This document shows positions 8,567 through 58,546 of a stretch of 64,000 nt of DNA, piece after piece. Source of the stretch: an uncultured Flavobacteriaceae bacterium. Its GTDB lineage: Bacteria; Bacteroidota; Bacteroidia; Flavobacteriales; Flavobacteriaceae. Every line of letters starts with the position of its first letter. Positions within the stretch are counted from its first letter, which is position 1. The position numbers and the translations under genes were made by a program. Below the pieces are notes generated by a model. That model did no database searches, had not been told where the DNA came from, and saw only the letters and a list, made by a program, of their open reading frames with translations. The DNA is taken from positions 62,001 through 126,000 of the forward strand of contig CANMFO010000003.1 in assembly GCA_947497245.1 (NCBI GenBank), in the 5' to 3' direction.

Positions 8567-8600
8567 GCCAAGGAACATGACAAAAATCATGTTCCTTGGC
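8567..8600. terminator. 14-bp inverted repeat between nrdD and norC
   Basis: A perfect 14-bp stem (8567-8580 with 8587-8600) with a six-base loop CAAAAA starts 41 bases after the nrdD stop. A T-rich run (CTTATTTTTA) follows ten bases later. It can act as terminator of nrdGD. The top of the stem is also CATGA-N6-TCATG, the core of a Crp/Fnr-family site, so the element may be a double-duty operator. Confidence 0.6.
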
Positions 8601-8620
8601 GAGGATCTGTCTTATTTTTA
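8576..8620 (+). promoter_or_regulatory. norC promoter with Crp/Fnr-type site
   Basis: CATGACAAAAATCATG (8576-8591) has a TGA-N6-TCA core centred at 8583.5. A near-consensus -7 element, TATTTTTA (7 of 8 to TAnnTTTG), is at 8613-8620, predicting a start near 8627 and a site centre near -43, the position of a class II activator. The nadA promoter has the same spacing. The leader to the norC ATG is about 46 bases. Confidence 0.5.
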
Positions 8621-8672
8621 TCCCATTAAGGAGAAAAAGACCTTTTTATATTATATACTAATCCACATCACC

Positions 8673-9113
8673 ATGTTATCAAAAAAACAAGCACGTACTT
8701 TTTTTCTTGGGGGGACCGTAGTAACCTTTCTGATCTTTATCGGGCTCACCGTGTACTCTTTCAGTAAAGAACAAGATCAATCGAACTATGGAAACATTAC
8801 CGAGCAGGTCGTTCGGGGAAAACAACTATGGGAATCCAATAACTGTATGGGTTGCCACACGATATTGGGCGAGGGGGCCTACTATGCTCCAGAACTTACC
8901 AAGGTCATTGACCGTAGGGGCGAGGGGTACATAAAAGCGGTGTTGACCTCCCCGATTCCTTGGGCACCCAATGGAAGAAAAATGGTGGCCTACGGTTTTT
9001 CGGAAGAAGAGGCCGAAGACCTTATTGCATTCTTTGATTGGATCGATGACATCGACCTTAACGGATTCGATACGGTCGTATCCCCTATCGCGAAAGACAA
9101 AATGAACAATTGA
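8673..9113 (+). CDS. norC: nitric oxide reductase cytochrome c subunit
   Basis: 146 residues from the ATG at 8673. One N-terminal membrane helix (residues ~8-30) anchors a periplasmic cytochrome c domain with heme motif CMGCH (Cys58, Cys61, His62) and a probable axial Met in GRKMVAYG. NorC passes electrons to the heme b of NorB. An in-frame ATG at 8577 was rejected because it lies inside the 8567-8600 inverted repeat and upstream of the promoter. First gene of the denitrification operon. Confidence 0.93.
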   Translation: MLSKKQARTFFLGGTVVTFLIFIGLTVYSFSKEQDQSNYGNITEQVVRGKQLWESNNCMGCHTILGEGAYYAPELTKVIDRRGEGYIKAVLTSPIPWAPNGRKMVAYGFSEEEAEDLIAFFDWIDDIDLNGFDTVVSPIAKDKMNN

Positions 9114-9215
9114 CACAGCTGGCATGGAATATCCAGGACAATGGTGTCGATACCCATCGATGGGATTGGACGGATGTTGCGGCCGACCGAAAATAACTAA
9201 TTAAAAAATAGACAG

Positions 9216-10553
9216 ATGAAATACAAATCACAAAAAGTGGCCTATTGGTTTTTTGCCCTGTCCATGTTGCTGCTTGTTTTACAGTTGACCTATGGATTTA
9301 TAATGGGCTTCGCACGGATAGGCCTGGACGGATTGCACGATTTTATACCTTTCAACACGGCAAGGGCCGTACATACCAATCTCCTTGTAGTTTGGCTGCT
9401 TTCCGGCTTCATGGGTGCCGCCTATTACATTATACCGGAAGAGGCACAACGCGAGCTGGTCAATGTAAAATGGGCCTATGTACAACTAATTTCGCTGGCC
9501 CTGGTCGGGGTCGCGGCCATAATAGGTTATCATTTCAATTGGTGGGAAGGACGCAAGTTTTTGGAGATACCCAGACAGTTGGATTTTCTGGTCGTGGCCA
9601 ATGTCCTATTGTTCCTAGGGCTGATACTGGCAACACTTTTCAAGGGAAAGCGCAGGACCACCACCGCCCTTGTACTTTCCATGGGACTCTTGTTCGCCGC
9701 TTTGTTGTACCTGCCGGGGATGTTGCCCTTTGACAGCCAGGTAACAGATTCTTTCTTTCGCTGGTGGGTGGTGCACCTTTGGGTCGAGGGCGTGTGGGAA
9801 TTGATCATGGGCGGTATCCTGTCGTTCCTGTTGATCAAACTTACCGGGGTAGATCGGGAAGTAATCGAAAAATGGCTGTACGTCATTGTCGGATTGACGT
9901 TCCTATCGGGAGTCCTTGGAACCGGACACCACTACTACTACATTGGTGTCAACAAAATTTGGCTGATCGTTGGCGGTATTTTCTCCGCCTTGGAACCCTT
10001 GGCCTTCCTGGCCATGGCATTGTTTGCCGTGAACATGTACCGCAAGGGCGAAAAAAAGCATCCCAACAAGATCGCACTGTTTTGGACCCTGGGCGCCGCC
10101 ATTGTATCGTTCCTGGGCGCCGGTCTCCTCGGTTTTGCCCATACCTTGCCCCAGACGAACCTGTACACCCATGGTACTTTGGTAACCGCTATGCACGGTC
10201 ATCTCGCCTTTTGGGGGGCGTACGCCATGATCGTTCTTGCCATCATTAGCTATAGCTTGCCGAACATGACCGGTAGAAAACTATACCTCACCGCCCGTGG
10301 CAGGGCCGCCTTCTGGCTCTCCAATATCGGGATGATCGGGATGACCGTTGCATTCGGAGTGGCAGGGGTTGCCCAGGTATATCTGGAACGGAAGTTCAAA
10401 ATGGACTTTATGCAGGTACAGAACGAGATCAGCATCCACTTTGTGGTGCTCATCCTCTGTGCTTCGGTATTGACCTTTGGGATCGCGCTGTACATCATCG
10501 ATTTTATAAAACACGGTCGTCCCACGGACGAAGCATTGGAAGTACAAACCTAA
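9216..10553 (+). CDS. norB: nitric oxide reductase catalytic subunit (cNOR type)
   Basis: 445 residues, about twelve membrane helices, reducing 2 NO to N2O. Ligands of the family can be placed: His53 and His329 for low-spin heme b, His327 for heme b3, and His187, His238, His239 with Glu191 for the non-heme iron; Glu195 is also kept (HLWVEGVWELI). From His187 to His329 these lie at a constant offset of 20 from Pseudomonas NorB numbering. No quinol-oxidising N-terminal extension is present, so this is the cytochrome c-dependent form, consistent with norC next door. The 102-base gap to norC holds a 12-bp palindrome (CCCATCGATGGG, 9153-9164). Confidence 0.95.
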   Translation: MKYKSQKVAYWFFALSMLLLVLQLTYGFIMGFARIGLDGLHDFIPFNTARAVHTNLLVVWLLSGFMGAAYYIIPEEAQRELVNVKWAYVQLISLALVGVAAIIGYHFNWWEGRKFLEIPRQLDFLVVANVLLFLGLILATLFKGKRRTTTALVLSMGLLFAALLYLPGMLPFDSQVTDSFFRWWVVHLWVEGVWELIMGGILSFLLIKLTGVDREVIEKWLYVIVGLTFLSGVLGTGHHYYYIGVNKIWLIVGGIFSALEPLAFLAMALFAVNMYRKGEKKHPNKIALFWTLGAAIVSFLGAGLLGFAHTLPQTNLYTHGTLVTAMHGHLAFWGAYAMIVLAIISYSLPNMTGRKLYLTARGRAAFWLSNIGMIGMTVAFGVAGVAQVYLERKFKMDFMQVQNEISIHFVVLILCASVLTFGIALYIIDFIKHGRPTDEALEVQT

Positions 10554-10584
10554 ACAGCAAATAACAATCAAATTTATACAACAA

Positions 10585-12048
10585 ATGAAAGCACTAAAAA
10601 GCCACATGATGTCGCTATGCCTTTTGGCGATCATTGCCATGGGAATGCAGGCCTGTATTGAATCCAACACAAAAAAAGAATACGTCAACGCTGCCGATAT
10701 CCGGGTAGGGGGGGAAATGGACGCGGAGCTCACCTCACCTCCCGACGTTCCCCGATCGGTGGGCAATCGAATGGCCAAGAAACTTATCGTGAATATGGAA
10801 ATCCTTGAAAAAGAAGGGACCATGACCGATGGTACCACCTACAATTATTGGACATTTGGGGGGTCGGTTCCCGGAAGTTTCATTCGCACAAGGATCGGGG
10901 ACGAGGTGGAATTTACATTGTCCAATCATCCCGATAACAAGCTGCCCCACAATATCGATTTACATGCAGTTACGGGCCCGGGCGGTGGTGCAACATCCTC
11001 TTTTGTTGCACCGGGCCATGAGAAAAAGTTCAATTTTAAGACCATAAACGAAGGCCTGTACGTGTATCATTGTGCTACGGCCCCGGTAGGGATGCACATT
11101 GCCAACGGGATGTACGGCCTAATTTTGGTCGAGCCGAAAGGCGGCCTCCCACCGGTGGACAAGGAATACTACGTAATGCAGGGCGACTTTTATACCAAGG
11201 GTGAAAATGGCGATCCGGGACTGCAACCTTTCGATATGCAAAAAGCGGTGGACGAAGATGCCGACTATGTGGTTTTCAATGGCCGCGTGGGCTCCATGAC
11301 CGGGGACAATGCCATTACCGCCAATGTGGGTGAAACGGTTCGTTTGTTCGTGGGGAACGGGGGCCCCAATCTAATTTCCTCTTTCCATGTCATTGGTGAG
11401 ATTTTCGATAAGGTGATGGTGGAAGGGGGCAACAGCATCAATGAGAACGTGCAGACCACCTTGATTCCGGCCGGCGGGGCAGCGATCGTGGAGTTCAAGG
11501 TCGATGTTCCCGGAACCTTTATATTGGTCGACCACTCCATTTTCAGGGCTTTCAACAAAGGCGCTCTGGGCATGTTAAAGGTACAGGGGGAAGAAAACAA
11601 AAACATATATTCCGGTGTGGTACAAGAAGGGATCTACCATCCTGAAGGTGGCGGAATCCAAGAGATGCCGGACGACGGTACAGCCGAGGTCAAAAGGACG
11701 GTTACGGAAAAGACCCTGGCTGAAAAAATGGAATCCGGCAAGCAGGTCTACGCAAAAACGTGTTTCGCCTGTCACCAGGCGAACGGGGAAGGGATTCCCA
11801 ACGCATTTCCACCTTTGGCCAACTCAGATTACCTAAATGCCGATGTGAACCGGAGCATAGAGATCGTGCTCAAGGGCAAGACCGGGGAAATTACGGTCAA
11901 CGGCCAAAAGTATAACAGCATCATGACCAAGCAGGCCATAAGTAGCGAGGAAATAGCCGATGTGCTTACCTATGTCTATAATTCCTGGGGGAACAAGAAA
12001 ACGAACGTAACCACCTCCCAGGTCGAACAGGTAAAAAGCGGGCACTAA
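10585..12048 (+). CDS. nirK: copper nitrite reductase with C-terminal cytochrome c domain
   Basis: 487 residues; reduces nitrite to NO in the periplasm. N-terminal lipoprotein-type leader with Cys24. Two cupredoxin domains follow: type 1 copper ligands His122, Cys163, His171, Met176; type 2 ligands His127, His162 and a third His in SSFHVIG; the catalytic Asp is Asp125 (NIDLH). After about residue 360 a linker leads to a class I cytochrome c domain with CFACH (Cys393, Cys396, His397) and probable Met447. The fused cytochrome should feed electrons straight to the type 1 copper. Placed 31 bases after norB, so NO made here is consumed by NorBC of the same operon. Confidence 0.95.
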   Translation: MKALKSHMMSLCLLAIIAMGMQACIESNTKKEYVNAADIRVGGEMDAELTSPPDVPRSVGNRMAKKLIVNMEILEKEGTMTDGTTYNYWTFGGSVPGSFIRTRIGDEVEFTLSNHPDNKLPHNIDLHAVTGPGGGATSSFVAPGHEKKFNFKTINEGLYVYHCATAPVGMHIANGMYGLILVEPKGGLPPVDKEYYVMQGDFYTKGENGDPGLQPFDMQKAVDEDADYVVFNGRVGSMTGDNAITANVGETVRLFVGNGGPNLISSFHVIGEIFDKVMVEGGNSINENVQTTLIPAGGAAIVEFKVDVPGTFILVDHSIFRAFNKGALGMLKVQGEENKNIYSGVVQEGIYHPEGGGIQEMPDDGTAEVKRTVTEKTLAEKMESGKQVYAKTCFACHQANGEGIPNAFPPLANSDYLNADVNRSIEIVLKGKTGEITVNGQKYNSIMTKQAISSEEIADVLTYVYNSWGNKKTNVTTSQVEQVKSGH

Positions 12049-12061
12049 AACACAGCGGGAA

Positions 12062-12838
12062 ATGACGGTTTTAAGATGGATATTTTGTGTGCTTTTTCTT
12101 TGGATGAACAATGCAAATTGTCAATCTAAAATGGTCGCCATAAAAGGGGGAACCTACATCCCCCTCTATGGAAGGGACTCGCTCAAGGTTGCGATAGCGG
12201 ACTTTTACATGGACGTATACCCCGTGACCAATCAGCAATTTGTCAAGTTTGTGGCCCAAAACCCGAAATGGAAGCGATCCAAGGTCATAGCCCTCTTTGC
12301 AGATGGCAACTATCTTATGGATTGGAAGTCCGATACCGTTCTGGGCGAGCAACAATCTTTAAAGGCCCCGATCACCAGCGTGAGCTGGTTTGCGGCCAAT
12401 GCCTATTGCGAATGTCAGGGAAAACGGTTGCCGACCATAGACGAATGGGAGTATGTGGCCATGGCCAATGCGGACCTCCCGGATGCACGGCAGCTAAAAA
12501 CCTATAATGAATACATTCTGGGGTGGTATGAAAAGCCAAGAACGTTCAACAACGATATTGGATCTACCTTTAAAAATTATTGGGAGGTTTACGACCTGCA
12601 TGGTCTGGTTTGGGAATGGACTTCCGATTTTAATTCGGTATTGGTATCGGGCGAATCCAGAAAAGATGTAGACAACGACAGTAATCTTTTCTGTGGAAGC
12701 GCCGCCATCGGTGCGACCGACCTTATGAATTATGCCGCCTTTATGCGATATGCGATCAGAGGAAGCCTCAAAGCCAAATACACCATGAAGAACTTAGGGT
12801 TCAGATGTGCAAAAGACAAAAAAAATGAAACGCTTTAG
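12062..12838 (+). CDS. nirV: NirV-like formylglycine-generating-enzyme-family protein
   Basis: 258 residues: an N-terminal signal peptide, then an FGE/SUMF1 fold (MVAIKGGTY, DVYPVTNQQFVKF, SVSWFAANAYCECQGKRLP, HGLVWEWTSDF, RGS, LGFRCAK). NirV proteins of this fold are known neighbours of nirK in several denitrifiers, with no settled function. The export signal puts this one in the periplasm with NirK. It starts 13 bases after nirK and overlaps the next gene by 14 bases. True sulfatase-activating activity is unlikely to be its role here but cannot be excluded. Confidence 0.8.
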   Translation: MTVLRWIFCVLFLWMNNANCQSKMVAIKGGTYIPLYGRDSLKVAIADFYMDVYPVTNQQFVKFVAQNPKWKRSKVIALFADGNYLMDWKSDTVLGEQQSLKAPITSVSWFAANAYCECQGKRLPTIDEWEYVAMANADLPDARQLKTYNEYILGWYEKPRTFNNDIGSTFKNYWEVYDLHGLVWEWTSDFNSVLVSGESRKDVDNDSNLFCGSAAIGATDLMNYAAFMRYAIRGSLKAKYTMKNLGFRCAKDKKNETL

Positions 12839-13553
12839 ATCAATACTCCCGCTTTTGGCCATGGTGCTGTCGTTGCTTGCCTGCAAGGACAAAACTCCCA
12901 CGACCGTCGGCACCAAAGAAATGGCATATCAATGTCCCATGAAGTGCGAAGGTGAAAAAACACATAACGCGGCCGGTAGTTGTACGGTCTGTAAAATGGA
13001 TTTACAGCCCATCGTCCCTCTTGCTGTGGGAGACCTAAGGGTCGATATGATTTCCGATGAATCCATTTTTAACCTGACCTCCGAGTGGAATACGGAAGAG
13101 GGCAATACCATTGCGCTAAGGGACCTAAAGGGAAAAACCTTGGTCATGGTCATGATCTACACTAGCTGTAAGGCGGCTTGCCCCCGACTGGTCGCCGATA
13201 TGCGCAATATTGAGAAACAGGTCCCAAAAGAACACCACAAGGATCTGAGGTATGTCCTGGTCAGCATCGATCCGGAAACCGATACCCCTACGCGCTTAAA
13301 AGCATTTGCCAAGGAAAACCTTATGGATGCGGAGCACTGGACATTCCTTCAGGGCACGGAGAACGGGGTGCGCGAATTTGCCAATGTCCTGGCCGTAAAA
13401 TACAAGCAGATCTCCCCCATGGATTTTTCCCATTCCAATATAATCAGTGTGTTCGACCCGGGAGGAGAGCTGGTTCACCAGCAGGAAGGCCTAGGGGTGG
13501 ATAACAGGGAAACCGTGAAAAAAATAATTGAGACCGTCGAAAAACAGATCTAA
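12825..13553 (+). CDS. Sco1/SenC-type copper chaperone with N-terminal heavy-metal-binding domain
   Basis: 242 residues from the ATG at 12825. A lipoprotein leader ends at LLACK. Next comes a small Cys-rich unit (YQCPMKC ... CTVCKMDLQP) of the heavy-metal-binding type found at the start of some CusB proteins, then a Sco thioredoxin fold with CKAAC and a distal His (DFSHSN). Sco proteins load copper into CuA or other cuproenzymes. Inside an operon with a copper nitrite reductase, delivery of copper to NirK is the natural inference. An in-frame ATG at 12807 exists, but the lipoprotein signal favours 12825. Confidence 0.88.
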   Translation: MKRFRSILPLLAMVLSLLACKDKTPTTVGTKEMAYQCPMKCEGEKTHNAAGSCTVCKMDLQPIVPLAVGDLRVDMISDESIFNLTSEWNTEEGNTIALRDLKGKTLVMVMIYTSCKAACPRLVADMRNIEKQVPKEHHKDLRYVLVSIDPETDTPTRLKAFAKENLMDAEHWTFLQGTENGVREFANVLAVKYKQISPMDFSHSNIISVFDPGGELVHQQEGLGVDNRETVKKIIETVEKQI

Positions 13554-13679
13554 AAAAACATTCATGATCGCAATCCGGTTTAACCCAGTGCATAAAGGTC
13601 CAAATACCCGCCCGTGCCCGATTCTTACCGGATCGCTCTGCGCCATTGTTTTTTGGGCCTTCAACTAACGATCGTTACT

Positions 13680-14501
13680 ATGCTACAGAACATAAAGAAC
13701 AACACCCGAGAGACGTCACAACTTAAGAAGGACGGACCCTACTACAAGCCCATAGCCAAAGAGGTTGAAACCTTTGAGCATTCGTACCTGCAAAAACTTC
13801 CTTTTCTTTTAAAGGGCCCCACAGGTACGGGAAAATCAAGGTTCATTGAGTATATGGCACATCGATTGGACCAAAAGTTGATCACGGTCAGTTGCCATGA
13901 AGAGACCTCATCGACCGACCTGATCGGACGATACATCATTAAGGGAGCGGAAACCGTGTGGTTGGACGGGCCCTTGACCACGGCGGTCAAAACGGGGGCC
14001 ATCCTGTATTTGGACGAAATAGCGGAGGCACGGCCGGATGTTATCGTGGCCATCCATTCACTGACCGATCACCGGCGCGAACTGTTTATTGATAAACTGG
14101 GCGAAACGGTAAGGGCACATCCCGATTTTATGTTGGTCGCTTCCTTTAACCCAGGCTACCAACGCGGGTTCAAAGAACTGAAACCTTCCACCAGACAGCG
14201 CTTTGTGGCGGTCTCCTTCCATTATCCGGAAGCCAGGTCCGAAGCGGTTATTTTGGTGAATGAGACCGGTATTTCCGAGGGCGATGCCAAAAAATTGGTG
14301 AACATAGCCAACAAGATCAGGAACCTTACCGAGTTGGGCCTTGCCGAGACCGTTTCGACACGACTGCTTGTGGATGCTGCCAAGTTGATAGGTTCCGGGC
14401 TGTCAAAACGATTGGCGGTACATGTCGCTGTGGTCGAACCACTGACCGATGATGTGGAAGTTATCACGGCCTTGAACGATCTGTGCGATCTAATGATATA
14501 G
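13680..14501 (+). CDS. norQ: NorQ/CbbQ-type AAA+ ATPase (MoxR class)
   Basis: 273 residues from the ATG at 13680. Walker A GPTGTGKS is near residues 45-53 and Walker B ILYLDEI near 108-114, followed by the family's ASFNPGYQ and STRQRF (arginine finger). NorQ works with NorD to activate NorBC, probably by inserting the non-heme iron. The following gene is norD, seven bases on. A longer frame from 13614 is less likely: it adds residues of no family pattern. Confidence 0.93.
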   Translation: MLQNIKNNTRETSQLKKDGPYYKPIAKEVETFEHSYLQKLPFLLKGPTGTGKSRFIEYMAHRLDQKLITVSCHEETSSTDLIGRYIIKGAETVWLDGPLTTAVKTGAILYLDEIAEARPDVIVAIHSLTDHRRELFIDKLGETVRAHPDFMLVASFNPGYQRGFKELKPSTRQRFVAVSFHYPEARSEAVILVNETGISEGDAKKLVNIANKIRNLTELGLAETVSTRLLVDAAKLIGSGLSKRLAVHVAVVEPLTDDVEVITALNDLCDLMI

Positions 14502-14507
14502 GAGGTT

Positions 14508-16283
14508 ATGTTTGAGTTCGAACCCGATGAATACCTCTTCACCAAATTTGCGCACTACTTCAAGCGCCGCAGAAAGAAAAAGGAGGCAGGCTTGGAACAT
14601 GCGGTGGCCCTGAAGGATGTAAAATCACGCTTGACCCTATTTGCACGCGCCATTACCGGAAAGCCCGTTGAAATCTATGCCGCCGAAAGGGAAGGGGGCT
14701 ACAAGGACAGCAACTTTTTTCTGCCTTCCACCTATGCCGCGTTTTCAACGGTCGAGGAAAACATGGCCTTCTACCTGTTCAGGGTTTTGTATTTGGGGGT
14801 TCAAAGCAAACTGGACCTCAACTGGAAGGAACCCGGTGAACATACGCTCAAGGACTCTCGGGAAAAAGCGGGGGAAGCTGCGAAAGAGGTACTGCCCTTG
14901 CTGTTCAGCGAATTTCCACCAACTGAAGGCTTCTGTCAAAAGTACATCGCACACTACTCCAAAAAAGCAAAAAAGAATTCCATGCCCGACTTTTCGTTCG
15001 TCTATGGAAAATGGATGCGCAATTCGCCCGATGAAACACAGGGCGACACTCTTAAAAATTTTTCGGAACAGGTGAAGGCGGCCGATGGCGAACGGCCAAA
15101 AACAATCCTAAAGGCCAACGTCGTGGAAGAGATTATCTCGGTACAGGTAGATGAAAAGCAGGTGGAGGACGCGGTCTTGCAACATCAGTTCGAAAAGGTG
15201 GAGACCGCAGATGAATTTGGCGGAAATTTCAAAAATATGGACGGAGACGACGAGCTTGACGACCATGCCAATGCCCTGGAAGACCTCAGCATGAAGTTCA
15301 GCGTTCGGGTGGATGATACCGCGCATTCCGTATACCAGGCCGATTTTGTTGAAAACACCACTATTGCTGAAAGTGCCGAACGTGATGACAATGGATATTT
15401 TGTCCATTATGATGAATGGGACCAAGCGAACCGAACCTACAAACCTGATTTTTGCAAGGTATATCCCAAGACCGTCCTAAAAACGGCCCCGACCTACTAC
15501 AAGGAAACAATTTCCAAAAACCGGTCCACATTGCTGGGTTTGAGAAAGATGCTGACCGCGGTGAACAATCGGTATCGGCAACAGCGCAGGCAAACCCAGG
15601 GAGAGGAATTTGATTTGGATGCCATTACCGATTTGTTCGTCGATGTCAACTCGGGGCATACCCCTTCGGAAAAAATTTACTTGTCCAAGCGCAAAAAGGA
15701 AAAGGACCTGTCCGTACTGCTGTTGTTGGACTGCAGTTTGTCAAGCGATGGTTACGCGGCCGGAAACCGTGTTATCGATGTTGAGAAGCAAGTATCCATC
15801 CTGTTTGGGGAGATATTGGACGAGTTCGACATCGACTTCTCCATCCACTGCTTTTACTCCAAGACAAGAAACCGTTCCACATATATCACCATGAAAGGGT
15901 TCGATGAGGATTGGGGAAGGTCCAAGTTCAAGATAGGTGCCGTGGAACCCAGCGGCTATACCCGTATTGGCCCGGCATTGCGACATTCGGGAGCCTTGTT
16001 GGACAAAAGGGACACCAAGAACAAATGGGTGATCCTCATTTCCGATGGAAAGCCCAACGACTATGATCGATATGAAGGAAGGTACGGAATAAACGACATT
16101 AAGCAGGCCCTGAGGGAACTCAACGAACGCCAGATAAATTCGTATGCCCTGGCCATAGAGGCACAGGCAAAATACTATTTGCCGCAGATGTTCGGACAAA
16201 ACCATTATCAGATCCTGACCACTCCGGTAGAACTGTTGCAATCCCTTGTAAAACTGTACGAAAGAATAAAACATCAATCCTAG
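14508..16283 (+). CDS. norD: NorD-type protein with C-terminal VWA domain
   Basis: 591 residues, cytoplasmic. The N-terminal two thirds are NorD-specific, with an acidic stretch around residues 240-260. The last ~190 residues form a von Willebrand A domain with a complete MIDAS: DCSLS, a Thr in SGYTRIG, and Asp in ISDGKPNDYD. It is the adaptor that the NorQ ATPase uses to mature NO reductase. The gene begins seven bases after norQ; AGGAGG, a rare good ribosome-binding sequence, spans the junction. Confidence 0.92.
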   Translation: MFEFEPDEYLFTKFAHYFKRRRKKKEAGLEHAVALKDVKSRLTLFARAITGKPVEIYAAEREGGYKDSNFFLPSTYAAFSTVEENMAFYLFRVLYLGVQSKLDLNWKEPGEHTLKDSREKAGEAAKEVLPLLFSEFPPTEGFCQKYIAHYSKKAKKNSMPDFSFVYGKWMRNSPDETQGDTLKNFSEQVKAADGERPKTILKANVVEEIISVQVDEKQVEDAVLQHQFEKVETADEFGGNFKNMDGDDELDDHANALEDLSMKFSVRVDDTAHSVYQADFVENTTIAESAERDDNGYFVHYDEWDQANRTYKPDFCKVYPKTVLKTAPTYYKETISKNRSTLLGLRKMLTAVNNRYRQQRRQTQGEEFDLDAITDLFVDVNSGHTPSEKIYLSKRKKEKDLSVLLLLDCSLSSDGYAAGNRVIDVEKQVSILFGEILDEFDIDFSIHCFYSKTRNRSTYITMKGFDEDWGRSKFKIGAVEPSGYTRIGPALRHSGALLDKRDTKNKWVILISDGKPNDYDRYEGRYGINDIKQALRELNERQINSYALAIEAQAKYYLPQMFGQNHYQILTTPVELLQSLVKLYERIKHQS

Positions 16284-16306
16284 ACCGGGACTGCCCAAGA
16301 AACCCC

Positions 16307-16888
16307 ATGGACCAAGAAACCATAGATAGCGCAAACCTCTACTACCCCCCTGGCGGCATATTGCTATGGATCATTATCTTCTTGGAATTGGCGACCTTTG
16401 GTATTGCCTTGGTGGCCATGGTCTACTCGGGCAAGGCAGAACCTGTACTGTTTCACGAGTCAAGACTTTCACTGAACGTCACGTATGGAACCATCAATAC
16501 TATTTTTCTCCTGACAAGCGGGTTTTTTATGGCGCTTTCCGTGAAAGCGGCGAAGTCCGGAGGGAAACGGCGGGCAAGGAAATATCTGCCGGCCACGATA
16601 CTCTTTGGAACCCTGTTCGTAGGCTTAAAAAGCTTGGAGTACCACGAAAAGATCGTTGCCGGATCAAGCTTGGGGTACAATACGTTTTTCGACTATTATT
16701 GGATGCTCACGATGTTTCACCTCGTTCATGTCATCGTGGGCTTGGTTATCCTGGTTTCAGTTTATTTTGGTGTAAACAAGAAAAATGGATCTACATCGAT
16801 CCAGGATATAGAGGCAAGCGCGGCTTTTTGGCATATGTGCGACCTCATTTGGCTGTTGTTGTTCCCCGTACTTTATTTGACCTTTTAG
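16307..16888 (+). CDS. norE: NorE-like cytochrome c oxidase subunit III family protein
   Basis: 193 residues with about five membrane helices. Family features include the acidic SLEYHEK segment, WMLTMFHLVHVIVG and a final WHMCDLIWLLLFPVLY. NorE proteins are non-essential partners of NO reductase in denitrifiers; their mechanism is not settled. The stop codon abuts the next start (norF-like), so the two are coupled. Confidence 0.85.
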   Translation: MDQETIDSANLYYPPGGILLWIIIFLELATFGIALVAMVYSGKAEPVLFHESRLSLNVTYGTINTIFLLTSGFFMALSVKAAKSGGKRRARKYLPATILFGTLFVGLKSLEYHEKIVAGSSLGYNTFFDYYWMLTMFHLVHVIVGLVILVSVYFGVNKKNGSTSIQDIEASAAFWHMCDLIWLLLFPVLYLTF

Positions 16889-17119
16889 ATGGATAGGACC
16901 ACCACAATTTCTTGGATATTTTTAGTTGCACTGACCGTTGTCACCCTGTTTCTTTCAGGCATTCGACAAAACTATGCCGCCTTGCTGATCATGATTGTGG
17001 CCGCTTCGAAATTTTTGGTGGTCGGATTTCAATTTATGGAACTGAAGCGCGCGCACCCTTTTTGGAAATTTTTGATTGTGACCTATGTAGTTATCTTAAC
17101 GGCCCTCTTATCGATATGA
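16889..17119 (+). CDS. norF: NorF-like small membrane protein (COX subunit IV family)
   Basis: 76 residues, three membrane helices, with the short prokaryotic subunit IV pattern (FLVVGFQFMELKRAHPFW). It begins on the base after the norE-like stop. NorE and NorF together support full NO reductase activity in model denitrifiers. Its stop lies one base from the stop of the convergent Rrf2 gene, so it closes the operon without room for a terminator. Confidence 0.82.
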   Translation: MDRTTTISWIFLVALTVVTLFLSGIRQNYAALLIMIVAASKFLVVGFQFMELKRAHPFWKFLIVTYVVILTALLSI

Positions 17120-17120
17120 C

Positions 17121-17576
17121 CTATGGCTTCAGTGCATCAAAGTCCTTTAACGATATGTACCTTCCCTTGCGTTCAATTTCCGTGACAAACTCCTGGATGG
17201 TCTTGTCCCTGAAATCGTTTAGGATTTTTTTCTTGAACGGGGCCACAGTGAAATGAACGGGACAGGGATTGTCGTCCCCGCACGTGGAGAGCCCTAAAAA
17301 ACACTGATCAAATTTTTCAGCGCCATCGATACATTTTACAATGTCCCAAACGGAGTTTTCAAGATTTTTTTGGTCCAGGAAAAACCCTCCGGTCGGACCC
17401 TTTGTGGAGGACACCAATTTGTTTTTTGTCAGCTGGTGCAACAACTTGGCCAAAAAGGGTTGTGGGGTCTCCAGTTCCCCTGCAATTTTTTTTACCCCAA
17501 ATTTCTCGTTTTCCCCCGAGTGCATGGCCAAATACAGTATGGAACGGATAGCGTATTTACAGGCGTTGGACAGCAT
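17121..17576 (-). CDS. Rrf2-family regulator (NsrR/IscR-like)
   Basis: 151 residues from the ATG at 17576. Typical Rrf2 start (MLSNACKYAIRSILYLA), winged helix with LAKLLHQL and GPTGGFFL. Three cysteines, Cys92, Cys99, Cys105 (CX6CX5C), sit where NsrR and IscR bind an iron-sulfur cluster; NsrR and IscR usually have CX5CX5C, so one extra residue is present here. An NO-sensing role is inferred from the cysteines and the neighbouring nor/nir genes. The upstream frame to 17669 is rejected, since it crosses the palindrome and promoter. Confidence 0.85.
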   Translation of the reverse strand: MLSNACKYAIRSILYLAMHSGENEKFGVKKIAGELETPQPFLAKLLHQLTKNKLVSSTKGPTGGFFLDQKNLENSVWDIVKCIDGAEKFDQCFLGLSTCGDDNPCPVHFTVAPFKKKILNDFRDKTIQEFVTEIERKGRYISLKDFDALKP

Positions 17577-17590
17577 GGGCTCGTTTTTGC

Positions 17591-17598
17591 CAAATATA
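17591..17598 (-). promoter_or_regulatory. -7 element of the Rrf2 gene
   Basis: On the minus strand this reads TATATTTG, an exact TAnnTTTG match. The predicted start near 17584 leaves only about eight bases before the ATG, an unusually short leader. No TTG is seen 19 bases upstream. Confidence 0.35.
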
Positions 17599-17654
17599 TG
17601 AAAAAAGGGGTTTTTGGACTTCTTTGGATGAAAAAGTTGGCGCAAACGGGGCAA

Positions 17655-17699
17655 TATGACCATTGTCATAATTTTTAAGGGTGCCCGACCTTATTTTCG
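17655..17699 (+). promoter_or_regulatory. nadA promoter with Crp/Fnr-type inverted repeat
   Basis: TATGACCATTGTCATA (17655-17670) is a perfect 6-4-6 inverted repeat with a TGA-N6-TCA core centred at 17662.5. TATTTTCG (17692-17699, 7 of 8 to TAnnTTTG) is a likely -7 element, putting the site about 43 bases before the start. The distance from site centre to -7 element (29.5) is the same as at norC. It also lies between the Rrf2 gene and nadA, so an Rrf2 operator is the alternative reading. Confidence 0.5.
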
Positions 17700-17722: not shown

Positions 17723-18649
17723 ATGGATTTCAAGGAAAAAATAAAGCAACTTAAAAAGGAAAAAAAAGCAGTTGTTCTGGCACACTACTATCAGGTCCCG
17801 GAAATTCAGGAAGTTGCCGATTACGTCGGGGACAGTTTGGGGCTGTCCCAAAAAGCGGCGGAGACCGATGCGGCGATCATTGTCTTTGCGGGCGTTCATT
17901 TCATGGCCGAAACGGCCAAGATCCTGAACCCGTCAAAAACCGTTCTTCTTCCAGATTTGGAGGCGGGTTGTTCCTTAGCGGAATCGTGTCCGCCCGAGGC
18001 CTTTGGAAAATTTGTGGACACCCATCCGGACCACACCGTGGTGACCTACGTAAACTGCAGTGCCGAGATCAAGGCGTTGACCGATATCGTCTGTACCTCG
18101 TCCAATGCCCTGAAAATCATCGCCTCCCTTCCAGAGGATAGACCGATCATATTTGCCCCGGACCGAAATCTGGGGCGCTACATCATGAAAAAAACGGGAA
18201 GAACCATGCTGCTCTGGGACGGAAGTTGCGTGGTTCACGAGGCCTTTTCGATCGACAAACTGATCGCGCTTTGTAAGGAATACCCCGGCCATAAGGTCAT
18301 AGCGCATCCCGAATCGGAAGAACACATTCTTAAAACGGCGACCTACGTTGGTTCCACTTCTGGGATGATCGAGTATGTAAAAACCCACCCTACGGACAAG
18401 TTCATTGTGGCCACCGAAGCCGGCATTTTGCACAAAATGCAGGAGGCGGTCCCCATGGCGGAGTTGATTCCCGCCCCGGCCAAGGAAGACAACACCTGTG
18501 CCTGTAGCGAATGTGCCTATATGAAGGTGAATACCATGAAAAAACTGTACGAATGTTTGCTGAATGAAAGTCCGCAAATTGAGGTGGCAAAGGACATTCG
18601 GGAAAAGGCGCTGATTCCGATCGAGCGAATGCTGGAACTATCCAAGTAA
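17723..18649 (+). CDS. nadA: quinolinate synthase A
   Basis: 308 residues. Condenses iminoaspartate with dihydroxyacetone phosphate to quinolinate, using an oxygen-sensitive [4Fe-4S] cluster. The likely cluster cysteines lie in the GCSLAESC/VNCSAEIK region, near the middle, and in CACSECAYM near residue 255; LAHYYQVPE and FAGVHFMAETAKIL are family hallmarks. It is followed one base later by nadB, which makes the iminoaspartate. It sits next to denitrification genes, divergent from an Rrf2 regulator. Confidence 0.96.
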   Translation: MDFKEKIKQLKKEKKAVVLAHYYQVPEIQEVADYVGDSLGLSQKAAETDAAIIVFAGVHFMAETAKILNPSKTVLLPDLEAGCSLAESCPPEAFGKFVDTHPDHTVVTYVNCSAEIKALTDIVCTSSNALKIIASLPEDRPIIFAPDRNLGRYIMKKTGRTMLLWDGSCVVHEAFSIDKLIALCKEYPGHKVIAHPESEEHILKTATYVGSTSGMIEYVKTHPTDKFIVATEAGILHKMQEAVPMAELIPAPAKEDNTCACSECAYMKVNTMKKLYECLLNESPQIEVAKDIREKALIPIERMLELSK

Positions 18650-18650
18650 T

Positions 18651-20216
18651 ATGCTTACGACCCATTATTTGGTTATCGGCTCCGGGGTTGCGGGATTGAC
18701 CTTTGCGATCAAGATCGCGGAAAAGTTCCCGGACAGAACCGTTACCATGGTTACCAAGGGCGATGAGGACGAATCGAACACCAAATACGCCCAGGGTGGT
18801 GTGGCCGTTGTGCTGGACGCCCAAGAAGATTCATTTCAAAAACACATTCAGGATACCTTGACCGTGGGCGATGGGCTATGCGACAGATCGGTCGTGGAAA
18901 TGGTGATCAAGGAGGGCCCCAAAAGGTTTGATGAACTGATCCATTGGGGCGCCCACTTCGATGTCGATGCCGAAGGGAACTACGATTTGGGAAAGGAAGG
19001 GGGACACTCGGAAAATCGCGTGGTACATCATAGGGATATCACGGGCCATGAGGTCGAAAGGGCCCTGTTGATGCGGGTCCATCAACTCGAAAACGTTGCC
19101 CTGTTACCGCACCATTTTGCCATAGACCTCATTACGGAACACCATCTTAAGCTGCCCAACATCCGGCAATTGACCTGTTATGGGGCATATGTGCTTCGGG
19201 AAAAAACAGGGGAGGTGCTTGCCATAAGGGCCCAGAACACCATACTGGCCTCGGGAGGTATTGGAAGGGTATATGGCCATACCACCAACCCCGATGTTGC
19301 CACCGGGGATGGCATTGCTATGGCCTACAGGGCTACGGCCCATATTAAGGATATGGAGTTTATCCAGTTTCATCCCACTGCACTTTACGAGCCCGAAGCG
19401 GGCACTTCCTTTCTTATTTCGGAAGCGGTCAGAGGTTTCGGGGCATATCTCCGCGATAAAAAGGGGCACCGCTTTATGCCAGATTACGATGGACGGGCAG
19501 AATTGGCCTCCCGGGATATCGTATCACAGTGCATTGACAAAGAGTTGAAAAAAACAGGGGACAACCATGTATTTCTGGACTGTACACATTTGGAAAGCAA
19601 GGCCTTTATGGCCCATTTCCCGAACATCTACGAAAAATGTCAGGCAATGCATATCGATGTAGCCCGGGACTGGATTCCGGTGGTGCCGGCATCGCATTAT
19701 GTATGCGGGGGAGTGGTGATCGATAAAAGTGGAAGGACAACGATCAACAATTTGTTCGCCTGCGGGGAATGTTCCCGAACCGGCCTGCACGGCGCAAACC
19801 GATTGGCCTCAAATTCTTTGTTGGAGGCGTTGGTATATGCGCACAATATTTTTCGGCATCTCTCCGAGGAGAGCACAGAGGGAATGCCCGTTGAAATTCC
19901 CGAATGGAACGATGAAGGTACCCGTATCACGAAAGAACATGTGCTGCTTGGGCATAACCTTAAGGAACTTCAGGCGCTGATGCGGAATTATGTGGGCATT
20001 GTACGGAGCAACGATAGGTTGACGAAGGCTGTTGCAAAATTGAATGTGATTCACAGCGAAGTGGAGGCCTTGTACCGGACCTCAAAGGTGAATACAACGC
20101 TTTGCGAATTGCGGAACATGGTCAATGTGGCGCATCTGATCATCGGTCAGTCCTTGGCGCGCCATGAAAATAGGGGAGGGTACAATAATATCGATAATAT
20201 AAGGAAACCAAAATGA
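18651..20216 (+). CDS. nadB: L-aspartate oxidase
   Basis: 521 residues, FAD-dependent, the first step of de novo NAD synthesis. The dinucleotide motif VIGSGVAGL is at the N-terminus; KYAQGGVAVV, HHRDITGHEVE, the substrate-loop sequence EFIQFHPTALY and ANRLASNSLLE are typical of the succinate dehydrogenase/aspartate oxidase family. NadB can use fumarate in place of oxygen, so it works anaerobically. It overlaps the next gene by four bases (ATGA). Confidence 0.96.
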   Translation: MLTTHYLVIGSGVAGLTFAIKIAEKFPDRTVTMVTKGDEDESNTKYAQGGVAVVLDAQEDSFQKHIQDTLTVGDGLCDRSVVEMVIKEGPKRFDELIHWGAHFDVDAEGNYDLGKEGGHSENRVVHHRDITGHEVERALLMRVHQLENVALLPHHFAIDLITEHHLKLPNIRQLTCYGAYVLREKTGEVLAIRAQNTILASGGIGRVYGHTTNPDVATGDGIAMAYRATAHIKDMEFIQFHPTALYEPEAGTSFLISEAVRGFGAYLRDKKGHRFMPDYDGRAELASRDIVSQCIDKELKKTGDNHVFLDCTHLESKAFMAHFPNIYEKCQAMHIDVARDWIPVVPASHYVCGGVVIDKSGRTTINNLFACGECSRTGLHGANRLASNSLLEALVYAHNIFRHLSEESTEGMPVEIPEWNDEGTRITKEHVLLGHNLKELQALMRNYVGIVRSNDRLTKAVAKLNVIHSEVEALYRTSKVNTTLCELRNMVNVAHLIIGQSLARHENRGGYNNIDNIRKPK

Positions 20217-57961: not shown

Positions 57962-58546
57962 CTAGTACCTTACAGACGATCTCAAACGACTAAAGGTCTC
58001 CGGTTTCATATTGAGGTAGGACGCCAGGTATTTTTGGGGAATGGCCTTTAACTCTTTGGGACAGCGCTGCATGAACGCAACGTACCGCTCCTCTGCCGAG
58101 AGCGTAAGCAGTTCAACCTCGCGGGAGAGCCTTCCAAAAAGAACATTACGGAAAAAAAGATGGCCCCAGGCATGGAAATCCGGGAACAGTTCGAACAGGG
58201 CCAAATAATCCCCTAGGTTGATGGCAAGCATCCGGGAGGGCTTTAGGGCCTCTAAGAAAGTGGACGAGGCTTGTCGCGAAACAAAGGAATCGAAAACTCC
58301 CGACGGACTGCCGGCGTAGGAAAAACCCAAAACCACTTTCTCTCCCCGATCGTTCAGGATGTAAAGGGCCTGGACCCCTTCCAGCACAAAGTAGAAATAG
58401 CGCTCGGTATTTCCAGCTTCGGTGATCAACGCGTATCGGTCAAAGCACTTCTCGGTCCATACCCCCCTGAACCGGGATTCCTGTTCCGCAGTGAACCGTA
58501 CCTGCGGAAAGAAACTTTTTAGCAACCCATAAGCTTGGTCATCCAT
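57962..58546 (-). CDS. Crp/Fnr-family transcriptional regulator
   Basis: 194 residues. N-terminal cyclic-nucleotide-binding-like barrel (residues ~20-120: YFYFVLEGVQALYILNDRGEKVVLGF), dimer helix, and a C-terminal helix-turn-helix (IPQKYLASYLNMKPETFSRLRS). The recognition helix has E-x-x-S-R (ETFSR), as in FNR and CRP. There is no N-terminal cysteine cluster, so it is not an oxygen-sensing Fe-S FNR. The effector is unknown. A perfect FNR-type box lies about 700 bases away. Confidence 0.88.
   Translation of the reverse strand: MDDQAYGLLKSFFPQVRFTAEQESRFRGVWTEKCFDRYALITEAGNTERYFYFVLEGVQALYILNDRGEKVVLGFSYAGSPSGVFDSFVSRQASSTFLEALKPSRMLAINLGDYLALFELFPDFHAWGHLFFRNVLFGRLSREVELLTLSAEERYVAFMQRCPKELKAIPQKYLASYLNMKPETFSRLRSSVRY

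Follow-up and report, generated by a model that had tools for sequence, protein, structure and literature searches.

A recurrent Crp/Fnr-type promoter element upstream of norC and nadA and the putative low-oxygen regulon behind it in a Flavobacteriaceae genome

The window analysed here is a 64,000-nucleotide stretch of the genome of an uncultured Flavobacteriaceae bacterium (assembly GCA_947497245.1, contig CANMFO010000003.1, positions 62,001 to 126,000), in which a norC-like and a nadA-like gene each lie behind a similar palindrome and promoter box. An initial annotation, made from the letters of the window, had proposed that the two palindromes bind one Crp/Fnr-like activator joining denitrification and NAD synthesis. 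The sequences CATGACAAAAATCATG (norC, 8576-8591) and TATGACCATTGTCATA (nadA, 17655-17670) are indeed present at these positions, and a box beginning TATTTT starts at 8613 and 17692, in both cases 29.5 bp from the centre of the site. Within the window, ATGACNNNNRTCAT occurs in two places (three strand hits), the norC and nadA sites alone; shuffling gives an expectation of 0.24 strand hits, and three were reached by 1 of 100 shuffles. The features of the two loci are listed below. Pfam matches stand behind the names that involve cytochrome c, COX1, Cu-oxidase, Rrf2, nos_propeller, Radical_SAM, receiver, kinase and Crp domains; all other gene names, here and throughout, were given by reading.

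8567..8600, no strand: perfect inverted repeat of 34 bp that encloses the norC site, with 14-nt arms and a 6-nt loop; single occurrence in 837 kb
8576..8591, no strand: CATGAC-AAAA-ATCATG, where an activator of norC is proposed to bind; belongs to the element set
8613..8620, plus strand: norC -7 box TATTTTTA, at a 23-bp gap from TCA; resembles TAnnTTTG
8673..9113, plus strand: norC-like cytochrome c gene (Pfam Cytochrom_C)
9216..10553, plus strand: norB-like gene (Pfam COX1)
10585..12048, plus strand: nirK-like copper nitrite reductase fused to cytochrome c (Pfam Cu-oxidase and Cytochrom_C)
17121..17576, minus strand: Rrf2-family regulator, divergent from nadA (Pfam Rrf2)
17655..17670, no strand: TATGAC-CATT-GTCATA, where an activator of nadA is proposed to bind; belongs to the element set
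17692..17699, plus strand: nadA -7 box TATTTTCG, at a 23-bp gap
17723..18649, plus strand: nadA, quinolinate synthase, named by reading from its open reading frame (ORF)
18651..20216, plus strand: nadB, L-aspartate oxidase, named by reading; ORF immediately after nadA

The same arrangement recurs elsewhere in the genome (G000; 5.25 Mb in 34 contigs). ATGACN4RTCAT gave 29 strand hits, or 21 places, against 8 strand hits for the reversed pattern. When the box was included, as the initial annotation had suggested, TGACNNNNRTCA-N23-TANNTT gave 18 matches in the whole genome and the reversed control gave none; by reading, 16 of the 18 are intergenic and two (L026, L039) lie within coding frames. 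TANNTT stands at this distance after sites upstream of cbb3 oxidase, DoxX-like, lipoprotein, glutamate-cysteine-ligase-like and RND-pump-like genes; other ATGACN4RTCAT sites (e.g. L009 and sites inside genes) lack it. The spacing was measured in 837 kb, made up of contig C3 as a whole and the last 199 kb of C2, a part enriched for elements because it was fetched where matches clustered. There, the self-complementary pattern TGAYN4RTCA has 170 strand hits (85 places), and 24 of these are followed by TANNTT at a gap of 23 bp, whereas the remaining 59 gaps in the range 0-59 hold 0-4 hits each (mean 0.93; binomial P about 3e-26 for gap 23). In the same 837 kb, neither the reversed pattern nor TGAC/RTCA pairs with N5 or N3 centres had TANNTT at gap 23. 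As a promoter element, TGAY-N4-RTCA followed by 23 bp and TANNTT recurs in this genome well beyond chance, and a chance likeness of the norC and nadA sites is rejected on both counts (18 matches against none genome-wide, 24 of 170 at one gap).

In class II FNR promoters of E. coli, the site is centred at -41.5 and the -10 box begins at -12. With 29.5 bp between its centre and the box, the element has the same geometry, and its fixed 23-bp gap predicts a class II position; the common spacing first proposed for norC and nadA therefore holds, whereas the centre had been placed near -43 and would lie near -41.5. The box itself matches TAnnTTTG, the -7 consensus of Bacteroidetes, seen in Flavobacterium johnsoniae too (PMC7366714).

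The flanking bases set the element apart from the classic FNR box. Of the 24 elements of the genome, 23 have A or C immediately 5' of TGA and one has T; in relatives, A, C or G precedes TGA in all 226 elements and T in none. These 226 represent repeated homologous promoters, since they come from 80 loci picked by likeness to an FNR-like protein (see below). For comparison, T precedes TGA in 50 of the 146 strand hits of our genome without a -7 box, a background that includes the opposite strands of functional sites. On the other side, the base 3' of TCA is T or G in 24/24 and 224/226 elements, respectively. The element thus reads M-TGAY-N4-RTCA-K and not TTGAT/ATCAA, and TTGATN4ATCAA, with 12 matches in 1.5 Mb, never has the box at the equivalent gap. 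The suggestion that the regulator has a specificity of its own is supported by the near absence of the 5' T of TTGAT.

The 24 elements precede ccoS-ccoN-like genes, hemN, the nosZ operon, the gene of the FNR-like protein, norC and nadA, and further genes resembling uspA (four), dnaJ, tonB, cardiolipin synthase and a ribosome hibernation factor, among others. By our own count, 20 of 24 have a plausible start within about 130 nt downstream. Direct targets of Rhodobacter FnrL include ccoN, uspA and fnrL in both species studied, and hemN in R. sphaeroides (PMC4634722); the gene content of the element, named mostly by reading, is therefore that of an FNR regulon.

Conservation was followed in 120 genomes of the family, our own included. 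A norC match is present in 19 of them; from 25 hits, six remote ones (L240, L242-L246) were dropped, and the 19 loci scanned belong to 18 genomes. The perfect 12-bp site is found at 16 of these 19 norC loci and the exact element at 12. Homologues of nadA occur in 47 genomes, one of which (G081) is too short to scan, and 13 of the remaining 46 have the exact element. In G109 (L218) and G041 (L311), a perfect 12-bp site lies upstream of nadA with no TANNTT at gap 23, possibly a variant spacing. The initial annotation had asked whether the motif is as frequent in coding as in promoter DNA: the exact element occurs in 0/19 norC and 0/30 nadA coding controls (the latter from the first 30 nadA loci), and 300 local shuffles gave a maximum of 0 (norC) and 1 (nadA). 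Moreover, all 80 loci of relatives that carry the FNR-like protein contain at least one exact element. The gap histogram of these loci also shows a peak of 74 at gap 0 and a count of 34 at gap 1. As to the promoter of the fnr-like gene itself, a perfect site lies upstream in 28 of 30 relatives, eight of them with gap 23. At several of the others (L266, L268, L270, L272, L274), the site is seemingly followed after some 9-10 bp by a box resembling TAATTTT, and gaps 8, 9 and 10 hold 16, 24 and 15 hits in the 80-locus histogram; such a short gap would suit autorepression.

The nadA element is almost confined to genomes that also encode HAAO. This enzyme forms the precursor of quinolinate in the kynurenine route, which depends on O2, and is used here, alone, as a proxy for that route. 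HAAO is present in 99 of the 120 genomes, our own among them; of the 21 HAAO-less genomes, 20 are listed and G116 follows by elimination. Among the nadA genomes, 13 of 32 with HAAO and 0 of 14 without it have the nadA element (p=0.004). Where norC and nadA are both present, the nadA element is found in 9 of 10 genomes with HAAO and in none of four without (p=0.005); these four keep their norC sites. This association was fixed as a prediction before a second genome sample was tested, in which 100 of 103 new nadA genomes were scanned and 80 were tested for HAAO (all 18 with a perfect site and 62 drawn at random from 82). HAAO was found in 15 of 16 genomes with the element and in 32 of 64 without it (p=0.001). 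For genera that the first sample did not contain, the counts are 10 of 11 and 22 of 47 (p=0.016). When both samples are collapsed by genus, 22 of 23 genera with the element have HAAO, compared with 38 of the 68 remaining genera (p=0.0003); by genome, the pooled counts are 28 of 29 with the element and 51 of 97 without. Where nadA is seemingly the sole route to quinolinate, it is almost never under this element.

NadB works without oxygen, with fumarate, in other bacteria, and we assume that it may do so in this bacterium as well. On that assumption, nadAB may be an anoxic alternative branch of NAD synthesis, turned on under conditions that stop the kynurenine route. That route, discussed in Flavobacteriales, begins with a step in which molecular oxygen is used (PMC4217691); the same source has oxygen in the aspartate oxidase reaction too. 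In our genome, the 400 bp upstream of HAAO and of the TDO-like gene contain no sites; direct repression of the kynurenine route might need such sites.

A serious, if not a probable, alternative is that the association of the nadA element with HAAO reflects shared ancestry, or joint transfer of a nor-nadA cluster, instead of an oxygen-driven choice of route. Indeed, nadA lies about 6-13 kb from norC in seven genomes, the nadA element tracks norC (9 of 14 genomes with norC against 4 of 32 without, p=0.0008), and the association statistics are not tree-aware. With this tie to norC, an effect of HAAO is hard to separate from those of anaerobic lifestyle, linkage and ancestry. Nevertheless, the association survives the collapse by genus and holds in genera new to the second sample, and the four HAAO-less norC genomes keep their norC sites yet have no element at nadA.

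Which protein would read the element? Seven genes of the genome match PF13545, and by reading the helix E-x-x-I-R is found in two of the seven, both times as T-E-x-x-I-R:

G000:C2:1168963-1169649, minus strand: FNR-like protein; adjoins cbb3 (ccoSN) genes and has the element in its own promoter
G000:C2:1206481-1207530: receiver-cNMP-HTH_Crp hybrid, preceded by a PAS kinase gene
L106 277-2634 (G000:C2, about 1205.2-1207.5 kb): locus of the PAS kinase and the hybrid

The FNR-like protein has the domains of a canonical FNR (PF00027, PF13545 and PF00325, all over cut-off) and matches structures of FNR-type regulators with E about 4e-24. Its closest proteins in named genomes are from Flavobacteriaceae such as Pelagihabitans, Maribacter, Pareuzebyella, Zobellia and Muricauda/Flagellimonas (84-89% identity). 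Of 110 aligned relatives, 109 have cysteines 5, 8, 54 and 107 (there is one gap), and all 110 have E192, I195 and R196; this conservation makes the four cysteines possible iron-sulfur ligands. In the hybrid, the helix T/S-E-x-x-I-R is present in all 26 loci where it was read, of 30. The PAS domain of the adjoining kinase matches FixL (E 8e-11), and a kinase homologue lies upstream of the hybrid in 29 of 30 loci; the position of the proximal haem histidine of FixL is occupied by H in 19 of the 30 and by F in two, is not covered in eight, and in one the kinase was not found. A haem role of the kinase is putative, judged likewise from a conserved residue.

The 13 genomes with a nadA element have the FNR-like protein alone (5), the hybrid alone (4) or both (4), taking a hit of at least 40% identity as presence of the former and E up to 1e-60 as presence of the latter. 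In G090, G101, G054 and G031 the nadA element is kept without a close FNR-like protein, which suggests that the hybrid can read it; the hybrid helix was read in G090 and G101. As to the activator first proposed for norC and nadA, a common one of Crp/Fnr type has strong computational support from the same site and spacing at ccoSN, nos, hemN, usp and fnr-like genes and from their recurrence upstream of norC and nadA in relatives; that it is a single protein does not follow, since two candidates carry the same helix.

We consider it unlikely that the element, although real, is read by neither candidate and instead by another Crp/Fnr protein, such as a DNR-like NO sensor. The genome does hold seven PF13545 genes and, outside these, a further Crp-like ORF by reading (window 57962-58546), and neither candidate alone predicts the nadA element. 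However, the E-x-x-I-R helix is limited to the two candidates among the seven read, the FNR-like gene bears the element and adjoins ccoSN, and 13 of 13 element-bearing nadA genomes have one or the other candidate, a count that is not significant.

It is very improbable that the nadA palindrome is the operator of the divergent Rrf2 regulator. The site sits between the two genes, and an Rrf2 gene is in the flank of 7 of the 13 element-bearing nadA loci; because it is missing from the flank of the other six, the element does not need it, and an identical element stands at many promoters where no Rrf2 neighbour is seen. An Rrf2/NsrR operator was thus rejected. A second Rrf2 gene adjoins the nos operon (L048 4675-5124), in parallel to the one beside nadA. 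Almost no credence can be given to the norC site as a mere terminator top that matches by accident: it is the core of the 34-bp inverted repeat immediately past the end of an nrdD-like ORF (RNA fold z-score -6.05), but 16 of 19 norC loci carry the perfect site, on which count a terminator alone was rejected, and no T run lies directly 3' of the hairpin at norC. The repeat is possibly an nrdD terminator or an extended operator, and both roles, terminator and activator site, may coexist at norC.

We therefore return to a Crp/Fnr-type regulon and compare it with known systems. It resembles FNR of E. coli and FnrL of Rhodobacter in domains, in the TGA-N6-TCA core, in the targets ccoN, uspA, fnrL and hemN (PMC4634722) and in class II geometry. 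It differs in having M-TGAY-N4-RTCA-K where they have TTGAT-N4-ATCAA (for R. capsulatus, (T/C/A)TGA-N6-TCAA; PMC4634722), and in its Bacteroidetes -7 box, a fourth cysteine placed elsewhere and nadA as a target. HcpR, DNR and NnrR share with it a Crp/Fnr-type control of N-oxide metabolism (PMC1274295). As far as the available part of that study goes, these groups have no FNR-type cysteine motif, and HcpR2 of Bacteroides and P. gingivalis, whose common motif is GTAACnnnnGTTAC, has hcp-only regulons, unlike the one described here. In the FixL-FixJ-FixK system, too, a FixL-like PAS kinase adjoins a receiver protein, a Crp/Fnr-type DNA-binding domain is used and cbb3 oxidase is a target; here, however, receiver, cNMP and HTH_Crp domains are in one protein instead of a separate FixJ and FixK. 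The hybrid may thus be a single-protein counterpart of FixJ plus FixK, with haem binding and phosphotransfer putative. Finally, a CRP/FNR meta-regulon of an anammox community covers Crp/Fnr homologues of a Flavobacteriales genome (PMC8510549), but files them near MalR with a predicted role in carbon sensing, and the available parts of that paper hold no such element.

All together, the norC and nadA sites quite probably serve as class II operators in a single low-oxygen regulon of Crp/Fnr type. Its activator, a dimer, would bind MTGAY-N4-RTCAK, centred some 41.5 bp before the transcription start, and contact RNA polymerase at promoters whose -7 box has the form TAnnTT(T). The FNR-like protein, whose own promoter has the element, and the hybrid beside the FixL-like kinase are the candidate activators. 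Upon a signal that may be low oxygen, NO or both, genes for denitrification, the cbb3 oxidase, haem synthesis without oxygen and stress proteins would be switched on together with nadAB, which would serve as an oxygen-free substitute for the kynurenine route.

Several observations weigh against this reading. The site itself is missing at 3 of 19 norC loci (G005, G033, G050), and 33 of the 46 scannable nadA genomes have no exact nadA element. Four of the 24 elements of our genome lack a visible gene start directly downstream: one is inside a coding frame, and three lie 321-1027 nt from the next ORF listed on their strand. The exact 23-bp spacing occurs in only 8 of 30 fnr promoters of relatives. 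G365, a draft that is 93% complete, has a nadA element and no HAAO match. The cluster cysteines of E. coli FNR are at positions 20, 23, 29 and 122; C5, C8 and C107 align with three of them, N14 stands at the fourth and the conserved C54 is elsewhere, so that the canonical set of four is incomplete. The FNR-like protein does not predict the nadA element (9 of 31 genomes with it against 4 of 15 without), and a rule deriving the one from the other was rejected. With either regulator the counts are 13 of 41 against 0 of 5 (p=0.30), which is not significant because 28 of the 33 element-less genomes also have one.

More tentatively, and as a proposal that may well fall somewhat short of even chances, quinolinate synthesis in Flavobacteriaceae with both routes would follow oxygen, by the kynurenine route in air and without air by nadAB, often encoded near denitrification genes and switched on through the element. 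Two proteins would share the reading of the element: an FNR-like one whose fourth cysteine is displaced, and an activator that combines FixJ-like and FixK-like parts and is controlled by a FixL-like kinase. The regulon would give a concrete promoter code for low-oxygen control in Flavobacteriaceae, for which the literature searched, with subscription papers mostly outside its scope, does not list one. This code predicts oxygen-responsive promoters, for instance at the genes of nitric oxide reductase and nitrous oxide reductase, and would link oxygen to the choice between two NAD pathways.

One palindromic site, in L048 9583-10639, has TANNTT at gap 23 on both sides (G000:C2:1195267 plus, 1195278 minus) and may drive two divergent promoters.

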